DNA of 64,000 bases from Thermaerobacter marianensis DSM 12885 (GTDB lineage Bacteria > Bacillota > Sulfobacillia > Thermaerobacterales > Thermaerobacteraceae): positions 1,798,001 through 1,862,000 of the forward strand of contig NC_014831.1 in assembly GCF_000184705.1 (NCBI RefSeq), read 5' to 3'. Positions 7,055-54,058 of the stretch are shown here, in pieces. The stretch's first letter is position 1. Each line of letters starts with the position of its first letter. Under the pieces are notes generated by a model. It made no database searches. It was given only the letters and a program-made list of their open reading frames with translations, and was not told where the DNA came from. The position numbers were made by a program, and so were the translations under genes.

Positions 7055-7609
7055 ATGGCACGCGACGTTTTCCCCGAAATTCACGAGCCTGCGCCCATAC
7101 GCTGGCTCCTGGCCCATCCCCGCGCGGGCTGGGTGTGGCTACTGCCCCGGCTCTGGCTGGGATGGCAGTGGTTGCAGGCCGCCCTTGGCAAGCTGGGTGA
7201 TCCGGCCTGGACAGGTCCCCAGGCCGGCGCGGCCCTCCAGGGTTTCATCCAGGGTGCCCTTCAGCGCGCTGAGGGCCCCCATCCCGAGGTGACGGGCTGG
7301 TACGCCCGCTTTCTCCGCGACGTGGTCTTGCCCAGCGCCGCCTCGTGGGCCAAGCTGGTCGCCTACGGGGAGCTACTGGTGGGCATCGCCCTGCTCGTCG
7401 GCATGCTCACCGGGATTGCGGCCTTTTTTGGGAGCTTCATGAACTTCAGCTTCATGCTGGCCGGAACGTCCAGCAGCAACCCGGTGATGTTCGCCGTCGC
7501 CACCGCCCTGGTGCTGGCCTGGCGGGTGGCGGGATGGATCGGCCTGGATCGCTGGCTGCTCCCCCTGCTCGGCACGCCGTGGGAGCCGGGGCGCGCCTTC
7601 CGGCGGTAG
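7055..7609 (+). CDS. DoxX-family membrane protein (DoxD/TQO small-subunit type)
   Basis: The 184-residue protein has an N-terminal amphipathic stretch, a helix at about 25-45 (WVWLLPRLWLGWQWLQAALG) and three more helices in the second half (for example LVAYGELLVGIALLVGML and FAVATALVLAWRVAGWI). The 'RLWLGWQWLQAALGKLGDP' opening and 'FMNFSFMLAGTSSSNPVMF' segment are typical of DoxX proteins of Bacillota and archaea. Relatives include the thiosulfate:quinone oxidoreductase subunit DoxD; many others have unknown roles. The start is ATG 7055 after ACAGGAGGG; a longer frame upstream lacks a ribosome site. It stands alone after the decayed region. Confidence 0.82.
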   Translation: MARDVFPEIHEPAPIRWLLAHPRAGWVWLLPRLWLGWQWLQAALGKLGDPAWTGPQAGAALQGFIQGALQRAEGPHPEVTGWYARFLRDVVLPSAASWAKLVAYGELLVGIALLVGMLTGIAAFFGSFMNFSFMLAGTSSSNPVMFAVATALVLAWRVAGWIGLDRWLLPLLGTPWEPGRAFRR

Positions 7610-7694
7610 TACCGACCACGACCGCGGTGTCCATGGACCGACGCGGACCCTTACCCTGCACGGTTACCGGGCATTAAACCGGAGGCTGGGCAGG

Positions 7695-8848
7695 TTGCTG
7701 TTCGTCGCGCTCCTCCTTGTTGCGTGCACATTGAGCGGGGCGCTCGGCATCGAAGCCTTGGGCGCTCGCCTCAGAATCAGGCGATCAGGCGCCTCGCCTA
7801 CGAACCGATCGGCCATCGCCCGCACTGGCCAAGGGTGTCCATCGTCGTGCCGGCCCACAACGAAGAAGCATCTCTGGAACCGGCCGTTCGCTCCCTCATG
7901 GCGCAGGACTACCCCGACCTCGAGATCGTGCTCGTGGACGACCGGTCCGAGGACCGCACGGGGGCGATCATGGACCGACTCGCCCGGCGGGATCCTCGGC
8001 TCCGGGTGATCCACGTCCGGGACCTCCCGCCTGGGTGGATGGGGAAGAACCACGCCATGTGGGTTGGTGCCCAAGCGGCCACGGGCGAGTGGTTCCTCTT
8101 CACCGACGCCGACGTCCACATGCACCCCGACACGGTCCGCCGCGCCGTGGAGTACGCCCTTCGCCACGGACTCGACCACCTCACCGTGGCGCCGCTTCTC
8201 ACGGTCCGAGGTCTGGTCCTCTCGGCCTGGGTCGGTCTCTTCACCCTGCTGTTCATCGCGTCGGAACGACCCCATCGCGTCCGGGACCCAAGATCCCGAC
8301 ACGGGGTCGGCATCGGTGCGTTCAACCTCATCCGACGGGAGGTGTACGACGCCATCGGCACCCATCGTGCCATCGCACTTCGTCCTGACGACGATCGGCA
8401 GCTGGGCCGGCGAGTGAAACGCCACGGTTACGCGCAGGAAATGCTGGTCGGCGGGGAATTGATTCGGGTCGCCTGGTACCGAACGGTGGGAGAGGCGCTC
8501 CGGGGCATGGAGAAACATGCGCTCGCAGGCATGGACTATCGGTGGACCAAGGCCGTCGCCGGGGTGGCTCTCGTAGCGCTGGCGACCTTGTTCCCCTGGG
8601 CGGCACTGTTCCTGGGCGACGCATGGATCGCGTGCTCTTCGGCCGGGGCGATCGTCGCCATCGCCGCGGGATACCTTCTCTCGAACCCCCCGCACTTGTG
8701 GCGTGGTCTCCTCGTCCTCCCCGTGGGGGCAGCGATGCTGGTCTACGGTCTGGCCCGCGCCCTCTTGCTGACGGCCATCCGGGGCGGCGTGCATTGGGGT
8801 AGCCGGTTCTTCTCCCTCGACCAATTGAAGCAGAACCGGTCCATGTGA
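7695..8848 (+). CDS. Family 2 glycosyltransferase (HpnB/CrtQ-like), probable frameshift near start
   Basis: The main frame encodes a GT2 domain beginning PRVSIVVPAHNEEASLEPAV, with the nucleotide-binding VLVDDRSEDRTG, the metal-binding DxD in FTDADVH and an acceptor-site RPDDDRQLGRRVKRHG. Three helices follow at the C-terminus, ending near 374 residues. This membrane-anchored layout matches transferases of the hopene-associated HpnB or carotenoid CrtQ type. The N-terminal anchor (LLFVALLLVACTLSGALGI) lies in a different frame starting at TTG 7695, ten bases after GGAGG, so a one-base shift at about 7770-7790 is needed to join them. Without it the protein would start at GTG 7724 and lack the anchor. 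The acceptor is unknown. Confidence 0.78.
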
Positions 8849-8939
8849 CGAACCGGGCCCCGGGCACTGGCTCCCGGGCCATCCCTGGGCCGTTGTGCGT
8901 GCCCGCGACCCGGTTCCCGACTTTGGAGAAGTCAATGGC

Positions 8940-9881
8940 TCAGGTCTGTGGGGAGGGGCCGCAGACGCGATCCCCCGTGTTGAAGAAACGGCCATCGGCA
9001 AACATCACCGGCAGGCCCGCCCCCAAGAAGAAGCTCTCATGGTCCTGGACGTGAAAGTGAAGATGGGGTTCGGTCGAGTGGCCCGAGTTGCCGCAGCGGC
9101 CAATAACCTGCCCCCGGCGCACGAGATCGCCTGCTCGCACACGAAGGCTGCCGCGCTGCAGGTGCGCCAGCAAGCTGTACTCCCGTGGCCCGTGGCGGAT
9201 GAGCACGTAGTTGCCCCGGGCGTCGCGCGCCAGGGGGTCCAGCATGCCCGTGCCGGGATGGGGGAAGTCCCGTTCACCGTCGCGTATGCTCACCACCTCC
9301 CCGTCTTTCGGTGCCAGGACCTCGCGCCCGAAACAGTAATAGTCTTCGAGACGCTTGCCGTCACCACGACAACTTCGACCCCGGTCGTCCGTGATGATGA
9401 AATCGTACGCGTACCGCTGGTTCGGCACATCCCAGGAGTGGGACGTCTCCGGGGTGAGACCGCCGCGGGCAACCGTCCATGTGCCGGTGAAGGGTGGCGT
9501 GTAGCCCGCCACGGCGGATCGCTCGGGCGAAGCGGCCCACCGGGCCATGCGCGATCCAGCCAGCACCTGCCCCGCCGTCATGAGCAGCGCCTGGACGAGG
9601 ATCCAGGGATTGAGGAGTACCAACAGGCTTGACGCGTAGTAGGTCAGCACACGGCGCAGGGTGATCCGAGGCAAGGTCCGCGGTCGATCGCGGTTCCATC
9701 GGAGCAACCGGACGATGCCCGTCACGACCTGCATGCCGAGCTCCACGGCTTTGATGAGAAACGCGAAGTAGAAGAGGGCAAACCATCGGAAGGCTGGGAT
9801 CCAGTGGTCCAACAGGGACAGCAGGCCCAGCCAGCCCAGTCCGGTGAGCCGCGATCGTGCGCGACGGCGACGCGTGGCCAA
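8940..9881 (-). CDS. M23-family (LytM-type) metallopeptidase with N-terminal membrane anchors
   Basis: The N-terminal half holds hydrophobic helices (RWFALFYFAFLIKAVELGM and SLLVLLNPWILVQALLMTAG). The C-terminal half is a peptidase M23 domain with QRYAYDFIITD carrying the zinc-binding Asp, GNYVLIRHGPREYSLLAHLQ and the final HLHFHVQDH motif carrying the HxH ligand and active-site His. Such enzymes cut peptidoglycan cross-bridges or serve as envelope-associated factors. The start chosen is TTG 9881 with AAGGGGGG seven bases upstream; ATG 9950 and a frame reaching 10046 are alternatives. It converges with the glycosyltransferase gene; the 91-base gap has a GC-rich inverted repeat. Confidence 0.83.
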   Translation of the reverse strand: MATRRRRARSRLTGLGWLGLLSLLDHWIPAFRWFALFYFAFLIKAVELGMQVVTGIVRLLRWNRDRPRTLPRITLRRVLTYYASSLLVLLNPWILVQALLMTAGQVLAGSRMARWAASPERSAVAGYTPPFTGTWTVARGGLTPETSHSWDVPNQRYAYDFIITDDRGRSCRGDGKRLEDYYCFGREVLAPKDGEVVSIRDGERDFPHPGTGMLDPLARDARGNYVLIRHGPREYSLLAHLQRGSLRVRAGDLVRRGQVIGRCGNSGHSTEPHLHFHVQDHESFFLGAGLPVMFADGRFFNTGDRVCGPSPQT

Positions 9882-22011: not shown

Positions 22012-23670
22012 TCATCCCAGATTGACCCAGACGCTCTTGACCTCCGTGTAGTGTTCCAGCGCGTACCGCCCCATCTCCCGCCCGATGCCGCTCTGCTTGA
22101 ACCCGCCCCACGGGCTGGTGGCGTCCAGCAGGTTGTAGCCGTTGATCCACACCGTCCCGGCCTTCAGGCGGTGGGCCACCTTGATGGCCTTAGCCACGTC
22201 CCGCGTCCAGATCCCCGCCGCCAGGCCGTACGGGGTGTCGTTGGCCCGCCGCACCACCTCGTCCAGGCTCTCGAAGGGCAGCACCGTCAGCACCGGACCG
22301 AAGATCTCCTCCCGGGCGATGGTCATGTCGTCCCGGCCGACGAAGACGGTGGGCTTGACGAAGTAGCCCGGCCCCGCCTCGGAGTTGGGCTCGCCCCCCA
22401 CCAGGAGCTCGGCCCCTTCCTCCCGACCACGCTCGATGTAACTCAGCACCCGCTCCAAGTGGCTGCGGCTGATCAGCGGTCCCATCTGCGTCATGGGGTG
22501 GATGCCGGGCCCCTGGCGCAGCCGGCTTGCCCGGTCGGCGATGTCCTGGACTATCCGGTCGAAGTGCTCCTTGTGGACGAACAGGCGGGATCCGGCACAG
22601 CAGACCTCGCCCTGGTTGAAGAAGATCCCCATCATCGCCCCCGCCACGGCGTTGTCGAGGTCGGCGTCGGGGAAGACGATGTTGGGCGACTTGCCCCCCA
22701 GCTCCAGGGTCACCCGCTTGAAGTCCCGGGCCGCCGCCGTCATGATCTTGCGGCCGACCCCCGGCGAACCGGTGAAGGAGATCTTGTCTACGCCGGGATG
22801 GTCGACCAGGGCGCGGCCCGCCGGCTCACCGTAGCCGGGCACCACGTTCACCGTGCCCGGCGGGAAGCCCGCCTGCCGCACCAGCTCGGCCAGCCGCAGG
22901 GCCGTCAGGGGAGTGAGCTCGCTGGGCTTGAGCACCACCGTGTTCCCCGTGGCCAGGGCCGGCGCCAGCTTCCAGGAGGCGATCATCAGGGGGAAGTTCC
23001 AGGGGACGATGGCCCCCACCACCCCCACCGGCTCCCGCCGGGTGTAGGCCAGGTACTCGCCGGGGAAGGACGCGGGCAGGGTCTCGCCCGTCCACTTGGT
23101 CGCCCAGCCGGCGAAGTAGCGGAAGTGCTCGACGGCTAGGGGCACGTCGGCCATGGTGGTCTCCGTGACCGGCTTGCCGGTGTTGAGGGACTCCAACTGG
23201 GCGAACTCCTGGGCGTTCTCTTCCAGGAGGTCGGCCAGCTTCCAGAGCAGCCGACCCCGCTCCGCCGGGGGTAGCTTGCCCCAGGTGCCCTCCAGGGCCC
23301 GCCGGGCCGCCTTGACGGCTAGGTCGACGTCCTCCTCCCCGGCCTCGGCCACCTCCGCCAGGGGCTCCCCGGTGGCCGGGTCCGTCACCACCAGGTAGCG
23401 ACCCGACCGCGGCTCCTGCCAGCGCCCACCGATGAAGAGCAGCTTGCGGGACCCGAGCCACTGGCGCACGACCGGCGCCACGAAAGGAAGCTTCAGGGTG
23501 CGGGTGCGGGTGAGGGGGGAACCCGGGCCCCCGGTCCCCGGTCCAGCCGCAGCTTCCACCGCCTTCCCCGCCGCGGCGGCCCCTGCCGCCGTCGGCTCCG
23601 CCGCGGGCGCTGCCTCGGCGGCGGTGCCGCCGCCAGGCGGCACTGCCCCCCCTTCATCCCACACCGTCAT
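22012..23670 (-). CDS. NAD(P)-dependent aldehyde dehydrogenase
   Basis: The enzyme oxidises aldehydes to carboxylic acids. The 552-residue protein exceeds the usual ~490 because of an Ala/Gly-rich N-terminal extension of about 60 residues. The ALDH core has the cofactor motif IVPWNFPLMIASWKLAPAL, SFTGSPGVGRKI, the general-base Glu in TLELGGKSPNIVF and catalytic cysteines in NQGEVCCAGSR. The end matches the betaine/phenylacetaldehyde-type branch (PWGGFKQSGIGREMG). The ATG overlaps the stop of the R2lox gene (ATGA), a strong sign of co-translation. In context it would oxidise the aldehyde made by the neighbouring alcohol dehydrogenase. Confidence 0.95.
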   Translation of the reverse strand: MTVWDEGGAVPPGGGTAAEAAPAAEPTAAGAAAAGKAVEAAAGPGTGGPGSPLTRTRTLKLPFVAPVVRQWLGSRKLLFIGGRWQEPRSGRYLVVTDPATGEPLAEVAEAGEEDVDLAVKAARRALEGTWGKLPPAERGRLLWKLADLLEENAQEFAQLESLNTGKPVTETTMADVPLAVEHFRYFAGWATKWTGETLPASFPGEYLAYTRREPVGVVGAIVPWNFPLMIASWKLAPALATGNTVVLKPSELTPLTALRLAELVRQAGFPPGTVNVVPGYGEPAGRALVDHPGVDKISFTGSPGVGRKIMTAAARDFKRVTLELGGKSPNIVFPDADLDNAVAGAMMGIFFNQGEVCCAGSRLFVHKEHFDRIVQDIADRASRLRQGPGIHPMTQMGPLISRSHLERVLSYIERGREEGAELLVGGEPNSEAGPGYFVKPTVFVGRDDMTIAREEIFGPVLTVLPFESLDEVVRRANDTPYGLAAGIWTRDVAKAIKVAHRLKAGTVWINGYNLLDATSPWGGFKQSGIGREMGRYALEHYTEVKSVWVNLG

Positions 23671-24746
23671 GCCGCCGCCCCTCCCCCGCCGGTGGAGGAC
23701 GGCCCCGTGCCCTCGGCAGGCCGCGGCTCGACGGGCGGCACCGCCTCCCCGGGCTGCCCGGCCGCACCGGCCGGTTCGTCCCCGTCCGGCGCCGCCTCCT
23801 CGACCTGGTCGGCCGCCAGCCGGTAGACCTCGGCCAGGGACTTGCCCCGGGCCTGCTCGATGCGCTGGGCCCGCAGGCTGAACTGCTTGATGGCGTAGTC
23901 GATAAACTCCTGCTGATCGACTTCAAACGGGTGCTCGCCGCCGTATGACGCATAGATCTCGTGGGTCACGCCCAGGGCATAAGGCAACAGGTGGTTGAGC
24001 CGCCGGTCGATGACGTTCCAGATGGAATCGTCGGCCGCCACCAGGCGCTGCAGCAGGAAGACCCCGTAGGCCAGGTGCCGGGATTCGTCCCGCTGGAAGT
24101 TGCGGATGCCCTGGACGAACCCGGGCATGACGCCCTGCCGCTGCAAGGTCCGGTAGAAGGCGTAATACCCTGTCTCGGCCAGGACCCCTTCCACGATTAG
24201 GTTGTACGTCACCGACGCTTCGGCCTGGGCCGCCGGGGAGGGGTCGTCCAGCAGACGGTTCATCGCCTGGGGCAGCTCCTCGTAGAAGATCTTCTTGTAG
24301 CTGGGCGTGTGATAGTGGTGCAGATCCTCGCCCGAGACCCCTGCCACCTCGTCCAGGAAGCGGCGCATGAACTCGGTGTGCTTCGCCTCTTCCCAGAGGA
24401 AGGTGGTGAGGAACATCTCCTCCTCCAGCCGGCCCTCCCGGGCGATGACCATGATCAGGGGCAACAGGTCCAGCGTGACCGATTCCTCGCCGGCGGCAAA
24501 CAGGGAGACCAGTCGTAACAGCGCATCCTTCTGGGCGTCGTTGAGCAGCTTCCAGTCTTCCTTGTCCTGGCGGAGGTCGATGGCCCGCGGATCCCAGGTG
24601 CCGAACTTCTTCGCCTTGTGGTAGAGCCGCATAGGCGGCAGATCGTGGTTGAGCCCCCGGCGGCTGGTGGTGACAAAGGCGTCGTGGCGCGCTTCCGCCG
24701 CCACCGGGCGCCCGTCCGCCGCACCGGAAACGCCCGTACCGGACAT
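23667..24746 (-). CDS. R2-like ligand-binding oxidase (R2lox)
   Basis: R2lox proteins have a ribonucleotide-reductase R2 fold with a Mn/Fe site and a bound fatty acid; they activate O2 for an unknown oxidation. Metal ligands are visible as E87 (GEESVT), E120 and H123 (WEEAKHTEF), E186 (NLIVEGVLAET), E221 and H224 (RDESRHLAYG). The pair that forms the unusual ether cross-link in this class, Val (V90) and Tyr (Y181), is present. The core ends near residue 305 and a Pro/Glu-rich tail follows. ATG 24746 is preceded by AAGGAAGGGGG. The gene lies in one operon with SCP2, alcohol and aldehyde dehydrogenases, suggesting hydroxylation of a lipid or hydrocarbon. Confidence 0.92.
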   Translation of the reverse strand: MSGTGVSGAADGRPVAAEARHDAFVTTSRRGLNHDLPPMRLYHKAKKFGTWDPRAIDLRQDKEDWKLLNDAQKDALLRLVSLFAAGEESVTLDLLPLIMVIAREGRLEEEMFLTTFLWEEAKHTEFMRRFLDEVAGVSGEDLHHYHTPSYKKIFYEELPQAMNRLLDDPSPAAQAEASVTYNLIVEGVLAETGYYAFYRTLQRQGVMPGFVQGIRNFQRDESRHLAYGVFLLQRLVAADDSIWNVIDRRLNHLLPYALGVTHEIYASYGGEHPFEVDQQEFIDYAIKQFSLRAQRIEQARGKSLAEVYRLAADQVEEAAPDGDEPAGAAGQPGEAVPPVEPRPAEGTGPSSTGGGGAAA

Positions 24747-24795: not shown

Positions 24796-25842
24796 TCACG
24801 CGCCGGGAATCAGCACCACCTTGGTCGCCTCCCGGCTGTCGAACATGCGGTACCCTTCCACCGCTTCCGCCAAGGGCAGCCGGTGGCTGATGATGACCTC
24901 GGGGTCGATCCGGCCCCCCGCCACCAGGGCCAGGGTGGCGTCGATGTCCCGGTGGATGTTGGCCAGGCCGATCCGGAAGGTGATGTCCCGGGTCAGGCTG
25001 GTGGCGAGGGGGAAGGAAAAGCTCTCGACCGTGGTGACCCCTACTGCCGAGATCCGCCCGCCGCCCCCGACCAGCTCGAAGGCTAGGGCCACGGTCTTGG
25101 GCCCGCCCACCGCCTCGATCACCACGTCGGCCCCCACGCCGCCGGTCAGTTTGTTGACCTGCGCCACGGGGTTCGTCTCGCTGGCGATGATGGGCACCGC
25201 CCCCAGCCGCTCGGCCAGTTCCGCCCGATCGCGCAGGAGGTCGATGGCCAGCACCTTGGCCGCCCCCAGGGCGAAGGCGCTCTGGATGGCCATGAGGCCG
25301 ACGGGCCCGCACCCGATCACCGCCACCGTCTCGCCGGGCTGCAGCTGCGCGTTGCGGACCGCGCCGTAGGCAGTGGTCAGGATGTCGCCGCAGAACAAAG
25401 CCTGTTCGTCGCTGAGTTCCTTGGGGATCACCCGCAGGTTGACGTCGGCGTGGGGCACCCGGACGAACTCGGCCTGGGAGCCGGCCAGGTTGCCGAAGGC
25501 CACGCCGTAGCCGAAGACGCCGTACTCCTGGCACTGGTTGTAGGCGCCCTTGCGGCACATGGCGCAGTGGCCGCAGGCGGTGTGGAAGGTTCCCACCACC
25601 CGGTCGCCGGCACGAACGGCCCGGACGGCCGGGCCGGCTTCCACCACCACGCCGGTGAACTCGTGGCCGCAGACGAACCCGGGCACCATGCCGGGGATGT
25701 GCCCGTGATAGATGTGGAGGTCCGAGCCGCAGATGGCGCAGCGGGTGACCTTGACGATGGCGTCGTCGGGGTGCCGGATCTGGGGCTCGGGCACGTCCTC
25801 GAGGGCCACCTGGCCCACGCCGCGGTAGGTGACCGCCTTCAT
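24796..25842 (-). CDS. Zinc-dependent medium-chain alcohol dehydrogenase
   Basis: The 348-residue protein has the catalytic zinc site (CAICGSDLHIYHGHIP, GFVCGHEFTG), the structural zinc loop CGHCAMCRKGAYNQC and the NAD-binding Rossmann motif AVIGCGPVGLMAIQ. It would oxidise a secondary or primary alcohol or reduce a ketone/aldehyde. The ending LPLAEAVEGYRMFDSREA is typical of the MDR family. ATG 25842 follows GAGGAAGGGG. The gene sits between the SCP2 protein (115 bases upstream) and R2lox (49 bases downstream), consistent with a stepwise alcohol-to-aldehyde-to-acid route. Confidence 0.95.
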   Translation of the reverse strand: MKAVTYRGVGQVALEDVPEPQIRHPDDAIVKVTRCAICGSDLHIYHGHIPGMVPGFVCGHEFTGVVVEAGPAVRAVRAGDRVVGTFHTACGHCAMCRKGAYNQCQEYGVFGYGVAFGNLAGSQAEFVRVPHADVNLRVIPKELSDEQALFCGDILTTAYGAVRNAQLQPGETVAVIGCGPVGLMAIQSAFALGAAKVLAIDLLRDRAELAERLGAVPIIASETNPVAQVNKLTGGVGADVVIEAVGGPKTVALAFELVGGGGRISAVGVTTVESFSFPLATSLTRDITFRIGLANIHRDIDATLALVAGGRIDPEVIISHRLPLAEAVEGYRMFDSREATKVVLIPGA

Positions 25843-25957: not shown

Positions 25958-26386
25958 TCAGGCCAGCCCGTCGGGGAACTCCGTCTCCACCTGCTGAGCG
26001 GAGTTGACCAGCTCCTTGGCGGCGATGACGTACCCCGAGAGCACCCCCATGTCGCCTTTGAGGATCTTGAGCTTGCCGCGCATCATCGCCGCCAGCGGGT
26101 CGAGCTGGCCCTCCATCACCTGCTTCCAGGTGTAGGCGTCGGCGCTGATGACGTAGGGAACGCTCTCCAGGTCTTCCTTGGTGCCGACCCGAGCATCGCG
26201 GCACTCGCCGCGGTAGAGGTCGAGGATGACCGCCCGCTCCTCCTCGATGCCCAGGGACGGATCGGCCTCGAGGACGAAGGCCAGCGGCCACTCCCAGGTG
26301 CGGGCGGCCTCGCGGTAGTTGGCGTTGGTGTTGATCCGGTCCTTGTACGCCTTGGCCCATTCCTCGGTGAAGGCCTGGTACGCCAT
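25958..26386 (-). CDS. SCP2 sterol-carrier-domain protein
   Basis: The 142-residue protein has the SCP2 fold pattern: early helix EEWAKAYKDRINTNANYREA, core strand AVILDLYRGECRDAR, YVISADAYTWKQVMEGQLD and the closing LKGDMGVLSGYVIAAKELV. SCP2 domains hold hydrophobic ligands such as fatty acyl chains and present them to enzymes. ATG 26386 follows GGAGGGG. It is the first gene of the R2lox operon, so it may carry the lipid substrate or product. The 154-base gap to the TetR gene holds an AT-rich dyad. Confidence 0.88.
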   Translation of the reverse strand: MAYQAFTEEWAKAYKDRINTNANYREAARTWEWPLAFVLEADPSLGIEEERAVILDLYRGECRDARVGTKEDLESVPYVISADAYTWKQVMEGQLDPLAAMMRGKLKILKGDMGVLSGYVIAAKELVNSAQQVETEFPDGLA

Positions 26387-26540: not shown

Positions 26541-27230
26541 TTAACGTGATTCCCCTTTTCGCCTTTCGCCTGAGGAGCCTTTCCACGCAGCACAACCAGC
26601 CTTTGCCGCGACGTGGCTCACCAGGATGTGAGCGACCTCCGGTTTTAACACCCCCTTCGCCATGTACAGCAAGAAAGCGTCTGCAATGGCCTCGGGTGAC
26701 AACGGACCCCCTGGACGGTACCAGACGGTCACCCAATTCATGGCACCGAAGCCGAAGAGCCGCAAAAGCCGCAAGTCCACCCCGGGCTGGAACAACCCGG
26801 CGGCGGCTCCCTCTTCCAAGGTACGAGCCCAGAGCCTCTCGTAGTCTTCCTGTGCCTCCGCAACCCGGGCTGCCGCCTCGGGACTCAAGTAGCGGCTTTC
26901 CTGGAGGATCACGGAAACGAAGTCCTGATTCTCTAGACACGCAAGCAGGTGGGCGCGTAACCCCAGCCAGATGCGTTCCGCCAAGCCCGGGCCGCCCTCT
27001 GCCATGGCTAGCTGGACCCGCCGGTGTACCATCTGGATGCCGTGCAACATGACTTCCAGCAGGAGCTGGTCTTTGTTGTTAAAGTGGTAGTAAAGGGCCG
27101 CAGGGGTGACTCCCAAAGCGGCGGCGAGATCCCGCATGGTTGTGGCGGGATAACCCTGCCGTGCGAACAAGCTTGCCGCATGCTGAAGGATGGTCTCCCG
27201 CTGCGGGGACAGAATCTTGCTGTGGGCCAA
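26541..27230 (-). CDS. TetR/AcrR-family transcription repressor
   Basis: The 229-residue protein starts with a TetR DNA-binding domain (ETILQHAASLFARQGYPATT then MRDLAAALGVTPAALYYHFNNKDQLL) and has a helical ligand-binding domain of the FadR/PaaR-like kind. TTG 27230, six bases after GGGGGG, is the best start; GTG 27248 is an alternative. A perfect 16-base palindrome lies 48-63 bases upstream and is its likely operator. It is read in the same direction as the SCP2-ADH-R2lox-ALDH genes, so it is the natural regulator of lipid-related genes there and perhaps of the divergent MocA-like gene. Confidence 0.9.
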   Translation of the reverse strand: MAHSKILSPQRETILQHAASLFARQGYPATTMRDLAAALGVTPAALYYHFNNKDQLLLEVMLHGIQMVHRRVQLAMAEGGPGLAERIWLGLRAHLLACLENQDFVSVILQESRYLSPEAAARVAEAQEDYERLWARTLEEGAAAGLFQPGVDLRLLRLFGFGAMNWVTVWYRPGGPLSPEAIADAFLLYMAKGVLKPEVAHILVSHVAAKAGCAAWKGSSGERRKGESR

Positions 27231-27277
27231 CGTCGTCCCCCCAGTCACTGGGGTTAAAGACCCCGGCTCGGCGCTTT

Positions 27278-29252: not shown

Positions 29253-29843
29253 ATGACTGCCACTGTGGCGTGGATGAACAGCAAGCGGTTCTTGGGGGTC
29301 GCGGCCGCCGGCTATCTCGCCCTGACGGTTGTGCTTGCCACCCTGTTCGCCACGGGAACGATCTTTGCAGCGTTCCCGCTCGCGGGCATCGGTGGCTTCG
29401 TCGTCGCTGCCGAACGCATCGAGGGCGACGTGTTTAAGTTGACGCCGGCCCTCGGCGACACGTCCGAGCAGCAATATTGGCCCCAGGGCGCCGTCCAGCT
29501 TGATGAGGTTCGAATTGAGGGCCTCAATCTTTCCAAAGACCTTAGTTTCGGTAGCTTGCGGGCGAAGGTCGAAATCGTAGCCACTGGCACAGTGGTAGGG
29601 CATGGTGTGACGATGAATATTTCAGGGATGCAGGCTGCTCAGGCCGAATTCGACAACATGAAAATCGACGAGACGTTCACCAGCGACGTGTTCAAGAAGA
29701 TCGGCCTGTCCGCCGACTCCATGACCTTGGTCCAGCCATCCATTAACACCCACCTGCTCACCACTAACTCTATTACGTTGCCTGGGATGAAGCTAAAGAT
29801 CAGGTTCTTCAACGGCGACCAGGAACTGGGGGGCGACTTCTGA
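29253..29843 (+). CDS. DUF6230-like exported or membrane-anchored protein
   Basis: The 196-residue protein has one N-terminal helix (YLALTVVLATLFATGTIFAA) followed by an extracytoplasmic beta-rich domain. GIGGFVVAAERIEGDVFKL and QLDEVRIEGLNLSKDL resemble the DUF6230 family known from Actinobacteria, whose function is unknown. ATG 29253 follows GGGGGGAG. The gene at 30955 encodes a similar domain, with a multi-helix protein between. A very strong hairpin separates this gene from the next, which may set different expression levels. Confidence 0.7.
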   Translation: MTATVAWMNSKRFLGVAAAGYLALTVVLATLFATGTIFAAFPLAGIGGFVVAAERIEGDVFKLTPALGDTSEQQYWPQGAVQLDEVRIEGLNLSKDLSFGSLRAKVEIVATGTVVGHGVTMNISGMQAAQAEFDNMKIDETFTSDVFKKIGLSADSMTLVQPSINTHLLTTNSITLPGMKLKIRFFNGDQELGGDF

Positions 29844-29868
29844 CCACCCGCGTCCAACCGTCGGCAAG

Positions 29869-29907
29869 GTTGGTCATGGCGGCCACCAGCCGGCCGCCAT
29901 GACCAAC
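29869..29907. terminator. Strong 16-base stem hairpin inside the DUF6230/DUF6114 cassette
   Basis: Perfect 16-base arms (GTTGGTCATGGCGGCC and its complement) with a seven-base loop lie 26 bases after the first gene and 36 before the second. It could be a partial terminator or an mRNA-stabilising end. The tail ACCTTCCTTC is only moderately T-rich. Confidence 0.75.
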
Positions 29908-29942
29908 ACCTTCCTTCGGCTTGGCGGGTAGGGGGGAGCGTC

Positions 29943-30929
29943 ATGGGACGGAGGATCTTGACGGCCATGGAATGCGCCATTTGTGGCGCCGTTCTGGGCG
30001 TGTGTTTAAGTCTCTTCCTCCTTCGACACCCGGTGGAGGAATTCGGCTGGGGCGTGGCCGCCGGGGGCTTGGCTGGCGGTGCCCTCCTCTACTACGTGTT
30101 GACCCATGGGGAAGCGACGCGTCGGCGCCGGGACACGGCCATCCTGGCGGTGGCCTGCTTGATCCCGGGCCTATTTCTCGCTGACCATCTTCGCACCGGC
30201 CTCTCCCCGGCCCTGGCCGCCACTCTCGGGTTGCTGTGGAGCGGCCTCTGGTGCGGACTCGCCGTCTGGTTTCAGGGCCGGCTAGCAGAGGCAGCGTGGT
30301 ATGTCCGTTACCACGGGGAATTGGCGGTCGTCCTCGCTTGCAGTATGACCGGTTCCGTCGCTGGCCATTTTCTGGCACAGTGGGCAGGCGGCACCTCGCC
30401 ATGGAGCGAGGCCCTCTACTGGGTCCTACCAACACTTCTGGCGGTGACGGCCAGCCTCATCCCCGGCGCCGCGCTGAGCCGCCAGCCGTACCGACCCGTT
30501 CTAGGCACCCTACTCGGCTTTCTTAGCGGCGGCCTAGTCCTGTGGTTCGGAATCCAAGTCGCACCCATGCTGTTTCTTCCAGGAAGTGGCCTGCTCTGGG
30601 CCGGGACGGTGATCGGCATCGCCATCCTGGTTGCCGCCATCGTGCCGGTGTTCTACCCCAAATCGGCCCTGGTCACTGGCCTCATCATGATCGGGCTATC
30701 CATTCTGTCGTTCATTGGTGCCACGGGTGGACTGATCGCCGGTGGCCTAGTCGGAATCCTTGCCGGTGCAATGTTCGCTTCCTGGGAGGGACAGCCCCAT
30801 GGCCTGGGTGTCGCACGGCCAACCCCCGATGCACAGGAGACTACCGGCGTGGTCATGGCTCTCGGCAACGACGAGGAACCGGCCGGGTCCAGTGTCGTCG
30901 AAGAACAGTCCCACGAGGCCAGCGGATAA
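29943..30929 (+). CDS. DUF6114-like multi-helix membrane protein
   Basis: The 328-residue protein has about nine or ten helices and a hydrophilic Glu/Ser-rich C-terminal tail. The last third (ALVTGLIMIGLSILSFIGAT, GGLIAGGLVGILAGAMFASW) matches the pattern of DUF6114 proteins, which are gene partners of DUF6230 in Actinobacteria. No catalytic motif is visible. ATG 29943 follows GGGGGGAGC. It lies between two DUF6230-like genes, so the three products probably form one envelope complex. Confidence 0.68.
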   Translation: MGRRILTAMECAICGAVLGVCLSLFLLRHPVEEFGWGVAAGGLAGGALLYYVLTHGEATRRRRDTAILAVACLIPGLFLADHLRTGLSPALAATLGLLWSGLWCGLAVWFQGRLAEAAWYVRYHGELAVVLACSMTGSVAGHFLAQWAGGTSPWSEALYWVLPTLLAVTASLIPGAALSRQPYRPVLGTLLGFLSGGLVLWFGIQVAPMLFLPGSGLLWAGTVIGIAILVAAIVPVFYPKSALVTGLIMIGLSILSFIGATGGLIAGGLVGILAGAMFASWEGQPHGLGVARPTPDAQETTGVVMALGNDEEPAGSSVVEEQSHEASG

Positions 30930-30954
30930 ACCCGCCGATAAGGGGTGAAGACCT

Positions 30955-32043
30955 TTGGTTCGTCGCCCTCCTCGGCTATCATCGGGCCGACGCACGCTCC
31001 TCCGGCGAATGCTTCGCAGGTGGCTGGCGGCCTCTCTGATCGCGATTGGCTTGTTGGCTGTGTTGTCCAGGATGAGCCTCCACGCAGGGAGTTCGCAACC
31101 TGTAGGGAGTTTACAACCTGGAGGTTCCGACCCTCCGGCACCTCCCGCCGTAACGCAGCCTGGAGGAGAGGGGCCTGGTTCCACCGATGGCGGCACCATG
31201 CCGGACGCACCCGCCGACGACGAAGGCGCAACGGATGAGGGCCCCAGCGGCCAGCCCGCTCCACCGGCGACTGGCGACTCCCCTCCCCCCGGCACCGGAG
31301 AATCCAGCAGGGGGGCTTACGATTATCCGAGCACCGAGCCTGGTAGTGAGCCAGATGATCCGGCCGATCCGGAATCGGAACCGCCTCCACCTTCGCGCGA
31401 ACCCGGCAGTGACCCCGGAACACCGGATCGTCCCGAAGAGAGGCCACGCGATATCGATGAAGCAAGTGGCGCGGAGGAGCAGGTCCAAGGAAGGGGAATC
31501 GTGCGGAGGGCGTCCGGACCGTTCCCGTCCGAACCAGAAGTGGGGGGATTCGTCATCGAGGTGAGTCACCTTTCCGGCTCGAACCTCTTCGTTGATAAAG
31601 AGTTCGATGATACCTCGGAGATGGGGCGGGCACCCCAGGCCCGCATTCGGCTGCGCGACGTCGAATTGCAGGGTCTAGACCTGTTTAAGAACCTCACCAC
31701 CGACGATGGCATGGCGTTTCACCTTCGTATCGATACCGCCAAGGGCGCCGAGGATACGGTACGCGTCGAGGGCTGGATGGAGGTGCGCGTTTCCGAACTC
31801 TATGCCAAGCGCCTGGAAGCGAAGGCACTTGGCATCGTCCCCATCACCCTCACCGATTATTGGACGACCGAACCCGAGAATGATCTGTTGATTCGTCTCG
31901 CTGGCCTGCTCGGGCTCGTCAACCTCGAAGCCGATACCATGAAAGTCAACGCCCATAAGATGCGAGTCCGCTTCGACAAGATCATCATTCCCAACCTGGT
32001 TCTCACCGTGGGGGAGGGGCACCTCGCATCAGAAGTCGAGTAG
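30955..32043 (+). CDS. Second DUF6230-like protein with Pro/Glu/Ser-rich spacer
   Basis: The 362-residue protein has an anchor helix (LAASLIAIGLLAVLSRMSL), a disordered Pro/Gly/Glu-rich spacer of about 140 residues, and a C-terminal domain resembling the product of 29253 (GGFVIEVSHLSGSNLFVDKE, RIRLRDVELQGLDLFKNL, then DTMKVNAHKMRVRFDKI). The spacer looks like a wall-spanning stalk that would place the domain at the cell surface. The start is TTG 30955 with AGGGGTGA upstream; an in-frame ATG at 31006 is possible. Function unknown. Confidence 0.68.
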   Translation: MVRRPPRLSSGRRTLLRRMLRRWLAASLIAIGLLAVLSRMSLHAGSSQPVGSLQPGGSDPPAPPAVTQPGGEGPGSTDGGTMPDAPADDEGATDEGPSGQPAPPATGDSPPPGTGESSRGAYDYPSTEPGSEPDDPADPESEPPPPSREPGSDPGTPDRPEERPRDIDEASGAEEQVQGRGIVRRASGPFPSEPEVGGFVIEVSHLSGSNLFVDKEFDDTSEMGRAPQARIRLRDVELQGLDLFKNLTTDDGMAFHLRIDTAKGAEDTVRVEGWMEVRVSELYAKRLEAKALGIVPITLTDYWTTEPENDLLIRLAGLLGLVNLEADTMKVNAHKMRVRFDKIIIPNLVLTVGEGHLASEVE

Positions 32044-32196: not shown

Positions 32197-34002
32197 ATGG
32201 CCATGGCGACTCTACCCCCGTGGGAGGCGCCCTCCCAGGCGACCCGGAGGGCCGACTGGTCGGAAGCCTGGTGGTCGTCGCCGCGGTGGACAGAACAGAA
32301 GCAGCGCATCCAAGCGGAACTCGCGGCCCTGGAGGCCTGCATCACGCCCCGCCGGCGCTTGCGTGCGGTGATCCGGACCCTGGCGCGCCACGGTCTCTTG
32401 CACCTCTTCCAGGATCGGCGAACTATCAAGTCGTTGGCCCAGGATGCCTCGCATCGGCGGCATCCCGGCCGCGACGAGCGCCTGCGCCAGATCGGGCGCC
32501 GGATTCGCCTGGCGCTCCAGGAGCTGGGCCCGACCTTCATCAAACTTGGGCAGGTGCTGGTGACCCGTCAGGAACTGCTGCCCGACCCCATCACCGCCGA
32601 ACTGGCTCAGTTGCTCGACCGGGTGCCGCCCATGCCCTTCCCGTACATCGCCGTCGTCCTCGACGAGGAGCTGCCCGAGGGATTGCAGACCTTCGCCTGG
32701 ATCGACCCAGACCCCATCGGGTCGGCCTCGCTGGCCCAGGTCTACCGGGCGCAGCTTCGCGACGGCCGCCACTGCGCCGTCAAGGTCGTCCGGCCGCTGG
32801 CCGACAAGCTGTTCCAGACGGACATCGCCAACATCGCCAACCTGGCGCGACGCTTGCAGCGGCTGCTGCCGCCGCCCATCGCCGCCTCGTCGGACCTACC
32901 CGGGCTCATCCGCGACTACTACAGTAGCGTGCAGAGCGAGCTAGACATGCGCATCGAAGCCCGGAACACCCTGGAAGGCCGGGACCTGGTGGAAGAGTTC
33001 GCCACCCTGTCGGTGCCAGAGGTCTACCTAGCCACACGCCGGGTGCTCATCACCGAGTACGTGGACGGCTGGAACATCAAGGACTTCCCGGTGGACTTCT
33101 TCACCTTCGAAGAGCGTTTCGAGCGCATGGTCGACCTGGCCCACCTGTACATCAAGGAGTTCCTGAACGGCCGCTACCACGCCGATCCCCACGGGTCGAA
33201 CCTCATGGTGTGCCGCCATACCAAGAACATCTACGTCATCGATTGGGGGATGGTCGGGCGCATGGACGCCCTCCACACCGAGGCGATTTTCCGGCACCTC
33301 CTGCACATTCGACTGAACCAAGCGGAAGACGCCGCGGAGGTCATGCTGGACGTCTTCGAACCGACCCCCTACACCGACGTGGGCCGGCTCAAGGACCAGC
33401 TGCGCTCCCTGTACATCCGCTACGTCGACACCGACCAGTCCGGGCCCCACAACTGGGGCCGTCTCCTGGTGGAAGAGATCCGCATCGCCATGGACAATCA
33501 CTGCCGCATCCCCACTGGCCTGTCCCTCTGGGCCAAGGGTTGGTCCGCGGCGGAGGGGACGGCACGGTGGCTCTGCCCGGAGATCACCTACCACACGGTG
33601 GTCGAGACGGCCGACGTCCAGATCCTCCGGCGCCTTCTCGCCCGCCGCTTCAACTACCGGGCCAACGCCGCCTGGATCGCCGAGGCTTCGGAACTGCTGG
33701 CCACGCTGCCTCGGCGGCTGAACAAGATCCTGGAGCGCGCGGCGTGGAACGACTTCAAGTTGCCGGTGGAGGCACGGTTGAGCGAGCCCGCCCAGAAGAC
33801 CCTCAACCGCATGGTCAATCGCGCCACCCTCGGCCTGCTATCCGGTACCTTCTTTCTCGGCGCCGCCCTCTTGGCCGCACTGGGAGGCGGCGCCTGGGAC
33901 CGCATCCCCGGTCTCGCGGCGGTCACGACCGTGGCGCTGTGGGGCTCGATGGGGGTGGGCGTGTACACCGTCTGGCGGGTGTTGCGGTCGCACAAGGCGT
34001 GA
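32197..34002 (+). CDS. AarF/ABC1/UbiB-family atypical kinase
   Basis: The 601-residue protein has the family's KxGQ region (LGPTFIKLGQ), the variant nucleotide loop GSASLAQVYRA, AVKVVRPLA with the invariant Lys, HADPHGSNLM and IDWGMVGRM in place of the usual HADPHPGN and DFG, and two C-terminal helices (LLSGTFFLGAALLAALGGG; TVALWGSMGVGVYTVWRVL). UbiB relatives support quinone synthesis or lipid transport through ATPase activity. ATG 32197 follows GCGAGGGGG. It is read with the upstream cassette but separated by about 150 bases and a palindrome. Confidence 0.88.
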   Translation: MAMATLPPWEAPSQATRRADWSEAWWSSPRWTEQKQRIQAELAALEACITPRRRLRAVIRTLARHGLLHLFQDRRTIKSLAQDASHRRHPGRDERLRQIGRRIRLALQELGPTFIKLGQVLVTRQELLPDPITAELAQLLDRVPPMPFPYIAVVLDEELPEGLQTFAWIDPDPIGSASLAQVYRAQLRDGRHCAVKVVRPLADKLFQTDIANIANLARRLQRLLPPPIAASSDLPGLIRDYYSSVQSELDMRIEARNTLEGRDLVEEFATLSVPEVYLATRRVLITEYVDGWNIKDFPVDFFTFEERFERMVDLAHLYIKEFLNGRYHADPHGSNLMVCRHTKNIYVIDWGMVGRMDALHTEAIFRHLLHIRLNQAEDAAEVMLDVFEPTPYTDVGRLKDQLRSLYIRYVDTDQSGPHNWGRLLVEEIRIAMDNHCRIPTGLSLWAKGWSAAEGTARWLCPEITYHTVVETADVQILRRLLARRFNYRANAAWIAEASELLATLPRRLNKILERAAWNDFKLPVEARLSEPAQKTLNRMVNRATLGLLSGTFFLGAALLAALGGGAWDRIPGLAAVTTVALWGSMGVGVYTVWRVLRSHKA

Positions 34003-34159: not shown

Positions 34160-34300
34160 TAGGGACCGGGAGCCCTGTCCGGCCGGGCGACCGGGTCGCC
34201 CTGATGATGCCCGACTGCGCGCAATTCCTCAAGTTCCCGGGCTGTGCCGCCGATGCGCAAGGCGGCGACGTCGCGTATGGCACCGACGGCCCCACGGCAG
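34160..34300 (+). pseudogene. Fragment of an AMP-dependent acyl-CoA ligase
   Basis: The segment VRPGDRVALMMPDCAQFLKF followed by GDVAYGTDG resembles the N-terminal motif 'gvrpGDrVaLmlpNcpqf' of acyl-CoA synthetases. No other part of the enzyme is visible on either side. It lies in the 460-base spacer between the UbiB-type gene and the coiled-coil gene; the rest of the spacer shows nothing recognisable. Confidence 0.4.
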
Positions 34301-34462
34301 GCGCCGTCGAGCGGGGGAGGGGGGCGACGGCCTCACCGTCGGAGCCACCCCTCGGCCGGTGACGCCCCGGAACCTGTGGGAAACCCCGAGCCGCGCCGAC
34401 GACGAGGCTGACTGGCGCCGGTGTTTCGATGAAGGCGCCGCAAGCGTGGAGGAGGTAACCGC

Positions 34463-35014
34463 ATGTCGATCTTCCGACGCAGGGGGCGGCCCGACGCCGG
34501 GCCAGCCAGTGCAGCCGATGGCCCTAGGGGGGCTGCCGACCGCCCCGTCGATCCGGGGGAAGGAGCGGCCCCGGGGACCGAGTCGTACGGCTCCCCTGGG
34601 CCGAGCGAGCCGCCCAACGACCCTTCCATGAACTACCCTTCCACGAACAACGGCCGCCCCATGACCATGGAGGAGCGGATCCAAGCCTTCTTTCGCCAGA
34701 GCGGCGGTCCGAACAACCCCGAGATCCCCAAACTGGTGGAGAAGCACCTGCTCTACGGCAAGGACCACGGCATCCCCGGTTACCGCGAGACCTTCGCCGA
34801 CGCCTTCATCGATGCCGTGGTCGGCGACCCCTCCCTGCTGCTCCTCTACGAGCGGGTGCAGCGTTGGCGGGCCGAGCGGCAACGGGAACGCCGGGATACG
34901 GCAACGGCGGTCGCCATCGCCACCGACTCCCAGCTACTGAAGCGGCTAGAGCGCCTGGAGCAGGAGGTAACCCGGCTGCGCCAGGCGGTGGAGCGCCTGG
35001 GCGCCACCCCATGA
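34463..35014 (+). CDS. Hypothetical protein with C-terminal coiled coil
   Basis: The 183-residue protein is not a family I recognise. Residues 1-65 are Pro/Gly-rich and disordered. A central helical part (MTMEERIQAFFRQSGGPNNP, HLLYGKDHGIPGYRETFADA) is followed by a Leu-heptad coiled coil at the end (LLKRLERLEQEVTRLRQAVE). It has no signal or membrane helix. ATG 34463 is preceded by GGAGGAGGTAACC, an excellent ribosome site, so the gene is likely real. It converges with psuG. Confidence 0.75.
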   Translation: MSIFRRRGRPDAGPASAADGPRGAADRPVDPGEGAAPGTESYGSPGPSEPPNDPSMNYPSTNNGRPMTMEERIQAFFRQSGGPNNPEIPKLVEKHLLYGKDHGIPGYRETFADAFIDAVVGDPSLLLLYERVQRWRAERQRERRDTATAVAIATDSQLLKRLERLEQEVTRLRQAVERLGATP

Positions 35015-52748: not shown

Positions 52749-54058
52749 CTTCCCTTCGGGTCGGTTGATGTCAGGAACCCTTCACCACCTCCTCCAGGTT
52801 GACCCTTTCACTGGGCGTGTCCCGCATTGGCTCGAGCTGGGCCATCGATTCAGGGCTGAAAGATTTGCGCGATGTGATCCATTCGTCGTGCTGCCCTTCG
52901 AGGACGGCACCCAGGAGTCGCAACGCAGCGGCCACGTTCGGGAAGATCCCTACGACGTCACACCGTCGCGCCAGTTCCCGGTTCAGCCGTTCAAGGACGT
53001 TGGTCGAATGGAATCCGTCGCCAGTGTTCGGCCAGGAAGACCATGTGGGCCAACCCGTCGTCCTCGGCATCCCGCAACGAGGTCGCCACCTGGGGGTACC
53101 GCGAGCCGAGCTCGTCGGCCACCTGCTGGAGCCGCTGCCGGGCCGTGGCCGCGTCGGGCTGGGCGAAGATGCTGCGGACCGGGGCGGCCACCGCCGGCTG
53201 GGCGTGCTTGGGGACCCGGGCCAGGAGGTTCCGCATGAAGTGGACCCGGCACCGCTGCCAGCTCGCCCCCGCCAACACGTCGGCGATGGCCCGCTTCAGG
53301 CCCTCGTGGGCGTCGGAGATGGCCCGCCGCACGCCCCGCAGCCCCCGCGCCACCAGGCTGCGCAGAAACGTTTGCCAGAACTCGTACGTCTCCGCCGCCC
53401 CCACGTCAAAGCCCAGCACCTCCCGCTCGCCGCTCGCCTTCACCCCAAGGGCCACCACGGCGGCCATCTTCACCACCCGGCCGTCCTGGCGGACCTTGAT
53501 TGCCTTGGCGTCGAGCCAGAAGTAGGGGTACGCGCCTTCCAACGGGCGGTTGCGAAAGCGCTCCATCCGCTCGTCCAACGCGGCACAGAGCCGGGAGACC
53601 TCGCTCTTGCTGACGCCATCCAGCCCCAGGGCCCGCACCAACTCGTCGACCTTCCGGGTGCTCACGCCGTGGACGTAGGCCTTATGGATGACGGCCACCA
53701 GGGCCTTCTCGGCTCGCCGGCGCCGCTCCAGCAGGCTGGGGAAGGAGGACCCCTTGCGGAGCTTGGGGATCTTCAGCTCGATGGAGCCCAGGCGGGTATC
53801 CCAGGGCCGAAGCCGATACCCATTGCGCTGGGTCGTCCGTTCCGCGGTGCGCTCGTAACGTCCGGCCCCGATTTGTGCGCGAACCTCGAGCTCAATGAGC
53901 TCCTGCACGAGTCAGCGCAAGCCTTCGCGCAAGGCGTCGTGCTCAGGCTCGCCTTGGTGTTTGCGCAAAAGTTCGAGAAGTGCCATCCTGAAGTCAGTGG
54001 TCACCGGTGCATGCCCTCCCTTCGATCGTCTTGTCCAACCACCCGAAGGGGAACCACC
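52749..54058. mobile_element. IS256-family insertion sequence (decayed)
   Basis: The element is delimited by imperfect terminal inverted repeats: TTCCCTTCGGGTCGGTT at about 52750-52766 on the left and the complement of GGTTCCCCTTCGGGTGGTT at about 54037-54055 on the right. The size of 1.3 kb is usual for IS256. Direct target repeats were not identified. Confidence 0.7.
52771..54004 (-). pseudogene. IS256/Mutator-type transposase with two lesions
   Basis: The gene starts at GTG 54004 (TTDFRMALLELLRKHQGEP), meets an in-frame TGA after DALREGLR where relatives have Trp, then continues LVQELIELEVRAQIGAGRYE through the DDE regions (YFWLDAKAIKVRQDG, SDAHEGLKRAIADV) to EHWRRI. There, near 53018, a one-base frameshift follows; the remainder (STNVLERLNRELARRCDVVG, ending VNLEEVVKGS) carries the catalytic Glu region. 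Repairing both lesions gives a full-length (~400 residue) transposase. Not functional as read. Confidence 0.85.

Follow-up and report, generated by a model that had tools for sequence, protein, structure and literature searches.

The window analysed here is a 64,000-nucleotide stretch of the genome of Thermaerobacter marianensis DSM 12885 (contig NC_014831.1, positions 1,798,001 to 1,862,000). T. marianensis 7p75a is Gram-positive, strictly aerobic and thermophilic and comes from the Mariana Trench (PMC3035304). Three open reading frames lie one behind the other on the plus strand of the window, at 29253-29843 (gene 1), 29943-30929 (gene 2) and 30955-32043 (gene 3). A first-pass annotation had read them from the letters alone as a cassette of the order DUF6230, DUF6114 and DUF6230, and this order was recovered with gene 3 as a DUF6230-like member. 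In Pfam, gene 1 passes the gathering score of DUF6230 (PF19741; 33.8 bits, cut-off 27.5) and gene 2 that of DUF6114 (PF19609; 42.5 bits, cut-off 27.9, residues 183-282), in agreement with the earlier calls for these two genes. Gene 3 gave no match to PF19741 at E<=1 and did not reach the DUF6230 gathering score. All three frames are real genes, since their differences from relatives in a metagenome-assembled genome (MAG) of the same family fall mostly on the third codon position (positions 1/2/3: 39/35/104 for gene 1, 112/90/173 for gene 2, and 9/5/24 for the domain and 20/14/28 for the stalk of gene 3). A relative of gene 3 in a same-family MAG is 83% identical. In the same-family MAG loci L015 and L016, genes 1 and 2 share about 67% and the stretch from gene 3 to the following ABC1 gene about 87% identity with the window, which may mean that the bin is mixed or that a second copy is present. 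In MAG G004 these two parts lie on separate contigs, one of which ends within gene 3, so that a split of the triple there is no more than possible.

The product of gene 1 is laid out as a predicted cleavable signal helix and a mature beta domain, which begins near residue 40 and runs to residue 196. An AlphaFold2 model (pLDDT 72.7, pTM 0.65) likewise consists of an N-terminal helix and beta strands. Comparison of this model of moderate confidence with the PDB yielded no convincing solved fold (best Foldseek E 0.09, best VIA-align Z 2.5), and PagP and EPDR1, weak rows at Z of about 2.5, were dropped as fold matches. A sequence search of the PDB found no relative of gene 1, and PHROGs and NCBIfam returned nothing useful for genes 1-3.

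As judged from peptide matches, gene 1 is homologous to P21 of Geobacillus. The P21 peptides are collinear with gene 1 (AFPLSGVGGFTISADLI at residues 40-56, PSLNTHYMSAGSITIPSMK at residues 162-180); for P21-N and P21-37 none of 2000 shuffled sequences matched gene 1 as well, for P21-20 this was the case in 12 of 2000, and P21-14 taken alone did not reach significance in the shuffle test. The N-terminus of mature P21 aligns at residue A40 of gene 1. Since mature P21 was found to begin with AFPLSGVGG, gene 1 most likely loses its N-terminal helix as a signal peptide. P21 and P16 are alkane-inducible proteins of Geobacillus thermoleovorans B23 (Kato et al. 2009, PMC2676291), a genus to which the record of such induction is confined. 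According to that paper, P21 mRNA is induced by alkanes, more strongly by those with longer chains, and is not induced by palmitate or trimyristin; the protein is secreted with removal of its signal peptide and fractionates with the membrane, and disruption of the P21 and P16 genes had not succeeded. The first-pass annotation had placed these families in Actinobacteria with unknown function, a statement which P21 and P16 contradict (PMC2676291, PMC10867098). The P21 orthologue GK2770 clusters with GK2771, which is R2loxI, a reported alkane hydroxylase whose alkane hydroxylation was seen in crude lysates (PMC10867098); P16 corresponds to GK3040, and both P21 and P16 belong to the family of gene 1.

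An alternative reading takes the DUF6230 proteins for secreted esterases acting on lipid esters, like the 'cholesterol esterase' of Streptomyces lavendulae, whose N-terminus is reported to resemble that of P21 (PMC2676291). We regard this as highly improbable, because no serine is invariant in the DUF6230 alignment of 14-15 members, nor is any Ser/His/Asp set; moreover, the same paper puts the full-length similarity of P21 to the S. lavendulae enzyme as negligible (PMC2676291).

The interval between genes 1 and 2 (29844-29942) contains a strong hairpin with a main stem from approximately 29866 to 29911 on the plus strand. Its minimum free energy is -57.5 kcal/mol (z -5.1), and 0 of 200 shuffled sequences were as stable. 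Stable hairpins with a different sequence occur at the same position in the related loci L039, L040, L042, L082 and L083, in L042 (Carboxydocella) with a run of T behind it, so that the hairpin noticed in the first pass can be taken as real. The P21 mRNA measures about 700 nt and its frame 603 nt (PMC2676291), a message size compatible with termination or processing of the transcript before the next gene, which is the position of the hairpin in the present loci.

Gene 2 encodes a long-form DUF6114 membrane protein, in which a hydrophobic N-terminal extension precedes the DUF6114 domain. The ten helices ascribed to it earlier are about right, since a simple hydropathy count gives nine hydrophobic segments. 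A reading of the N-terminal half as a duplicated DUF6114 domain found no support (profile probability 0.8%).

Gene 3 starts with TTG, preceded, as seen by eye, by a AAGGGGTG-like ribosome site. A single hydrophobic segment (residues 24-42) is followed by a stalk and a C-terminal domain (residues 187-362). The stalk, previously described as a Pro/Glu-rich stretch of about 140 residues, measures 142 amino acids (residues 45-186), of which 75% are P, E, S, T, D or G, and is an acidic Pro/Gly/Glu sequence with a net charge of -21. Genes 1 and 3 share 32% identity over 56 residues (E 1.2e-4), and their profiles match with a probability of 98.5% (E 3e-15), which rose to 99.2% (E 3e-19, hhalign) with profiles enlarged to 15 and 6 members; a reversed-profile control gave 0.3%. 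By these comparisons the C-terminal domain of gene 3 is a distant DUF6230 relative outside Pfam membership. The relatedness of the two outer domains, as the first pass had proposed it, rests on sequence profiles because structure prediction for the gene 3 domain gave an unusable model (pLDDT 38); none of the comparisons showed the two domains to be unrelated.

Upstream of the cassette and on the opposite strand lies an oxidation operon. It comprises genes for an aldehyde dehydrogenase (ALDH; 22012-23670, PF00171, E 8e-188), an R2-like ligand-binding oxidase (R2lox; 23667-24746), a zinc-type alcohol dehydrogenase (ADH; 24796-25842, PF08240 and PF00107) and a protein with an SCP2 sterol/lipid carrier domain (25958-26386, PF02036, E 7e-8), all on the minus strand. 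A TetR-type regulator (26541-27248, minus strand, PF00440 and PF17932) is located between this operon and the cassette, and the R2lox gene ends 4.5 kb from gene 1. The nearest solved structures of the window R2lox are 3ee4 (E 6e-74) and 4hr0 (E 5e-68), both of them R2lox. The protein keeps the motifs for six metal ligands (E-E-H-E-E-H spacing) and the Val/Tyr pair, residues with assigned roles in GkR2loxI, the reported alkane hydroxylase of this family. Downstream of gene 3, an ABC1/UbiB-type atypical kinase (32197-34002, plus strand, PF03109, E 2.6e-43) and g5, a small conserved protein without Pfam family (34463-35014, plus strand), are recurrent neighbours: ABC1 kinases are also found near the cassette in L040, L082, L083, L085, L086, L093, L094, L099 and L101, and g5 homologues in L040, L086, L094, L099 and L101. 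The core of g5 recurs in R2lox/DUF6230 clusters of Bacilli with up to 72% identity. Farther away in the window, at 52771-53908, two overlapping frames resemble, by eye, a broken insertion-sequence transposase.

The GK2769-GK2782 alkane cluster of Geobacillus kaustophilus (PMC10867098) likewise holds R2lox, ALDH, ADH, an acyl-CoA ligase and DUF6230 together. In the window, by contrast, the cassette is encoded on the strand opposite to the operon, and the ligase gene of the locus has decayed. In three other Thermaerobacter genomes the gene directly after ABC1 encodes a fusion protein of 870 residues, with DUF6114 (E 2e-22) as its N-terminal part ahead of an AMP-binding acyl-CoA ligase (E 9e-108; L034 6210-8822, L035 6159-8780, L036 3743-6361). 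In the window this fusion gene is reduced to fragments at 34180-34231 and about 34285-34430; the first is a stretch of 52 bp on the plus strand with 87% identity, where VRPGDRVALMMPDCAQFL stands against fusion residues 279-296. These three genomes have no triple, but their R2lox-ADH-ALDH-SCP2-TetR block is in the corresponding position; this block is clearest in L105, with parts of it in L103, L104, L034 and L035. Two DUF6230-type genes, one with a long tail, stand together elsewhere in these genomes, whereas in the window the triple, which brings its own DUF6114, lies upstream of ABC1. Either Thermaerobacter layout thus has a pair of DUF6230-type proteins and a single DUF6114. At the position of the window's cassette, L035 (2813-3871) and L036 (8663-9679) carry a lipoprotein with repeats that, by eye, are sialidase/YCF48-like.

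In a scan of genome contigs, Candidatus Carbobacillus altaicus (L041) and a compost-type MAG (L040) proved to carry the full triple, which in the former is followed directly by an acyl-CoA ligase and after that by R2lox genes; a DUF6230-DUF6114 pair was found in a same-family MAG (L039) and in Carboxydocella (L042). In a Bacilli-level sample of 399 genomes, taken from the class of the L041 genome, DUF6230 was present in 33. We inspected 20 loci from 19 of these genomes, all of which contained DUF6230 together with DUF6114. A further DUF6230-like gene was present in 19 of the 20, the exception (L097) being the second locus of one genome. Profiles of the third proteins matched the DUF6230 profile with 98.8% probability (E 8e-17; reversed control 0.3%). 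In the first pass the triple had looked undescribed outside Actinobacteria; DUF6230-DUF6114-DUF6230-like is the usual form in this Bacilli-level sample. Most third proteins have a long charged or Pro-rich tail, and two layouts can be distinguished. In the window, L016, L040, L041, L082 and L084 the stalk precedes the domain, and DUF6114, where it is visible, is always of the long form. In L085, L087, L088 and others the domain precedes the stalk. L095, L096 and L101 show the order DUF6114, DUF6230 and two short DUF6230-like genes, near R2lox.

L085 and L086 carry the P21 peptides letter for letter, and hence the published P21 gene belongs to the three-gene form. At these loci the P21 gene is followed, as in the window, by genes for a long DUF6114 and for a third, DUF6230-like protein, and it lies next to R2lox; the third protein, however, has its domain first and a helical or charged tail behind it, in contrast to the window with the stalk first and the domain last. 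The passages on P21 that we consulted make no mention of DUF6114 or of a third gene.

An R2lox profile, applied at a threshold of E<=1e-40, detected the gene in 65 of the 399 Bacilli-level genomes. It was present in 27 of the 33 genomes with DUF6230 versus 38 of the 366 without (odds ratio 39; Fisher p 1e-18, uncorrected for kinship and too small because related species were not collapsed). The two genes lie <=10 kb apart in 19 of the 27 genomes that have both, in varying gene orders. R2lox occurred without detected DUF6230 in 38 genomes and DUF6230 without R2lox in 6.

The cassette might also be a general envelope module that has nothing to do with hydrocarbons and merely lies near R2lox in some Bacilli. 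Pairs on Rhodococcus plasmids are placed among glycosyltransferase or RNA-repair genes and the Carboxydocella pair beside purine and molybdate-type genes, and no R2lox or fatty-acid context was found for either within the stretches examined. The actinobacterial pair has its two genes adjacent, as in the window, but differs in a short DUF6114 (127 aa, L050), other neighbours and a third DUF6230-like gene not being seen. We consider such a general role unlikely in view of the strong association of DUF6230 with R2lox in Bacilli, the two Thermaerobacter arrangements, which keep DUF6114 beside the R2lox operon, and a haloarchaeal pair that adjoins genes for an acyl-CoA dehydrogenase-like protein and an AMP-ligase (L051). 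This last locus (7317-9807), on a plasmid of Natronococcus sp. AD-5, combines DUF6230 and DUF6114 with a third, secreted protein whose tail is long and acidic. Its stalked third gene, tried as DUF6230-like, reached a profile probability of 0.8% and was left out of the triple count.

The present data show the homologies, the order of the genes, their co-occurrence and co-localisation with R2lox and the fusion of DUF6114 to a ligase, and the link between the cassette and the R2lox pathway is strong. We hold a role of the cassette in R2lox-dependent hydrocarbon metabolism to be quite probable. We infer a transport mechanism, and see about even chances that the cassette is an envelope system capturing long-chain hydrocarbons for R2lox and the acyl-CoA ligase. 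The stalk of gene 3 would hold its beta domain out through the wall, at the outer face, and secreted gene 1 would carry a hydrophobic ligand across the wall space. This ligand of the DUF6230 domains may be the long-chain hydrocarbon itself or the products of its initial oxidation. Gene 1 might be made in excess if the hairpin ends or stabilises the message before gene 2. The gene 2 protein would take up the ligand at the membrane and hand it on to cytoplasmic R2lox, after which alcohol dehydrogenase, aldehyde dehydrogenase and then acyl-CoA ligase would act. The products of genes 1-3 may form one envelope complex.

The main rival assigns the secreted DUF6230 proteins to surface attachment or tolerance: they would coat the cell or membrane and stick to oil droplets or shield the membrane, with no inward transport. 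The same induction and genomic context data fit it, the stalked proteins look surface-exposed, and tolerance is an option named by Kato et al. (PMC2676291). It leaves unexplained the adjacency of DUF6114 in every locus inspected and the acyl-CoA ligase fusion in three genomes, and seems to us rather doubtful.

Uptake for R2lox, the reading we prefer, has a parallel. FadL-FadD is the vectorial acylation system of Gram-negative bacteria. The proposed coupling of uptake to an acyl-CoA ligase, mirrored by the DUF6114-ligase fusion, resembles it; unlike FadL-FadD, the present system belongs to a monoderm cell without outer membrane, and no FadL homology is claimed. Tentatively, DUF6230, DUF6114 and stalked DUF6230 could constitute a dedicated machine by which single-membrane bacteria, and perhaps haloarchaea, supply R2lox with long-chain alkanes across wall and membrane, as a counterpart of Gram-negative FadL/AlkL-type uptake.

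Already known are the occurrence of the family outside Actinobacteria (P21, P16) and, for one species, the P21-R2lox neighbourhood. In the open-access literature, within the limited scope of our search, the names DUF6230 and DUF6114 are almost absent, and we found no account of the three-gene cassette, the identity of P21 as DUF6230, its DUF6114 partner, the DUF6114-ligase fusion or a general R2lox link. The words 'alkane' and 'hydrocarbon' are absent from the T. marianensis genome paper (PMC3035304), and abstracts on Thermaerobacter and alkanes contained no growth data.

The delivery of water-insoluble alkanes to the enzymes of Gram-positive cells is, to our knowledge, an unsolved problem. 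These results turn two uncharacterised Pfam families into testable parts of one pathway. For P21 they supply a membrane protein as partner, a third subunit with a stalk, and a physical connection to acyl-CoA ligase. Thermophilic, compost and oil-field bacteria whose use of hydrocarbons depends on R2lox can be recognised in genome data by the cassette, which also suggests what the missing machinery for long-chain hydrocarbon capture in such cells may be.
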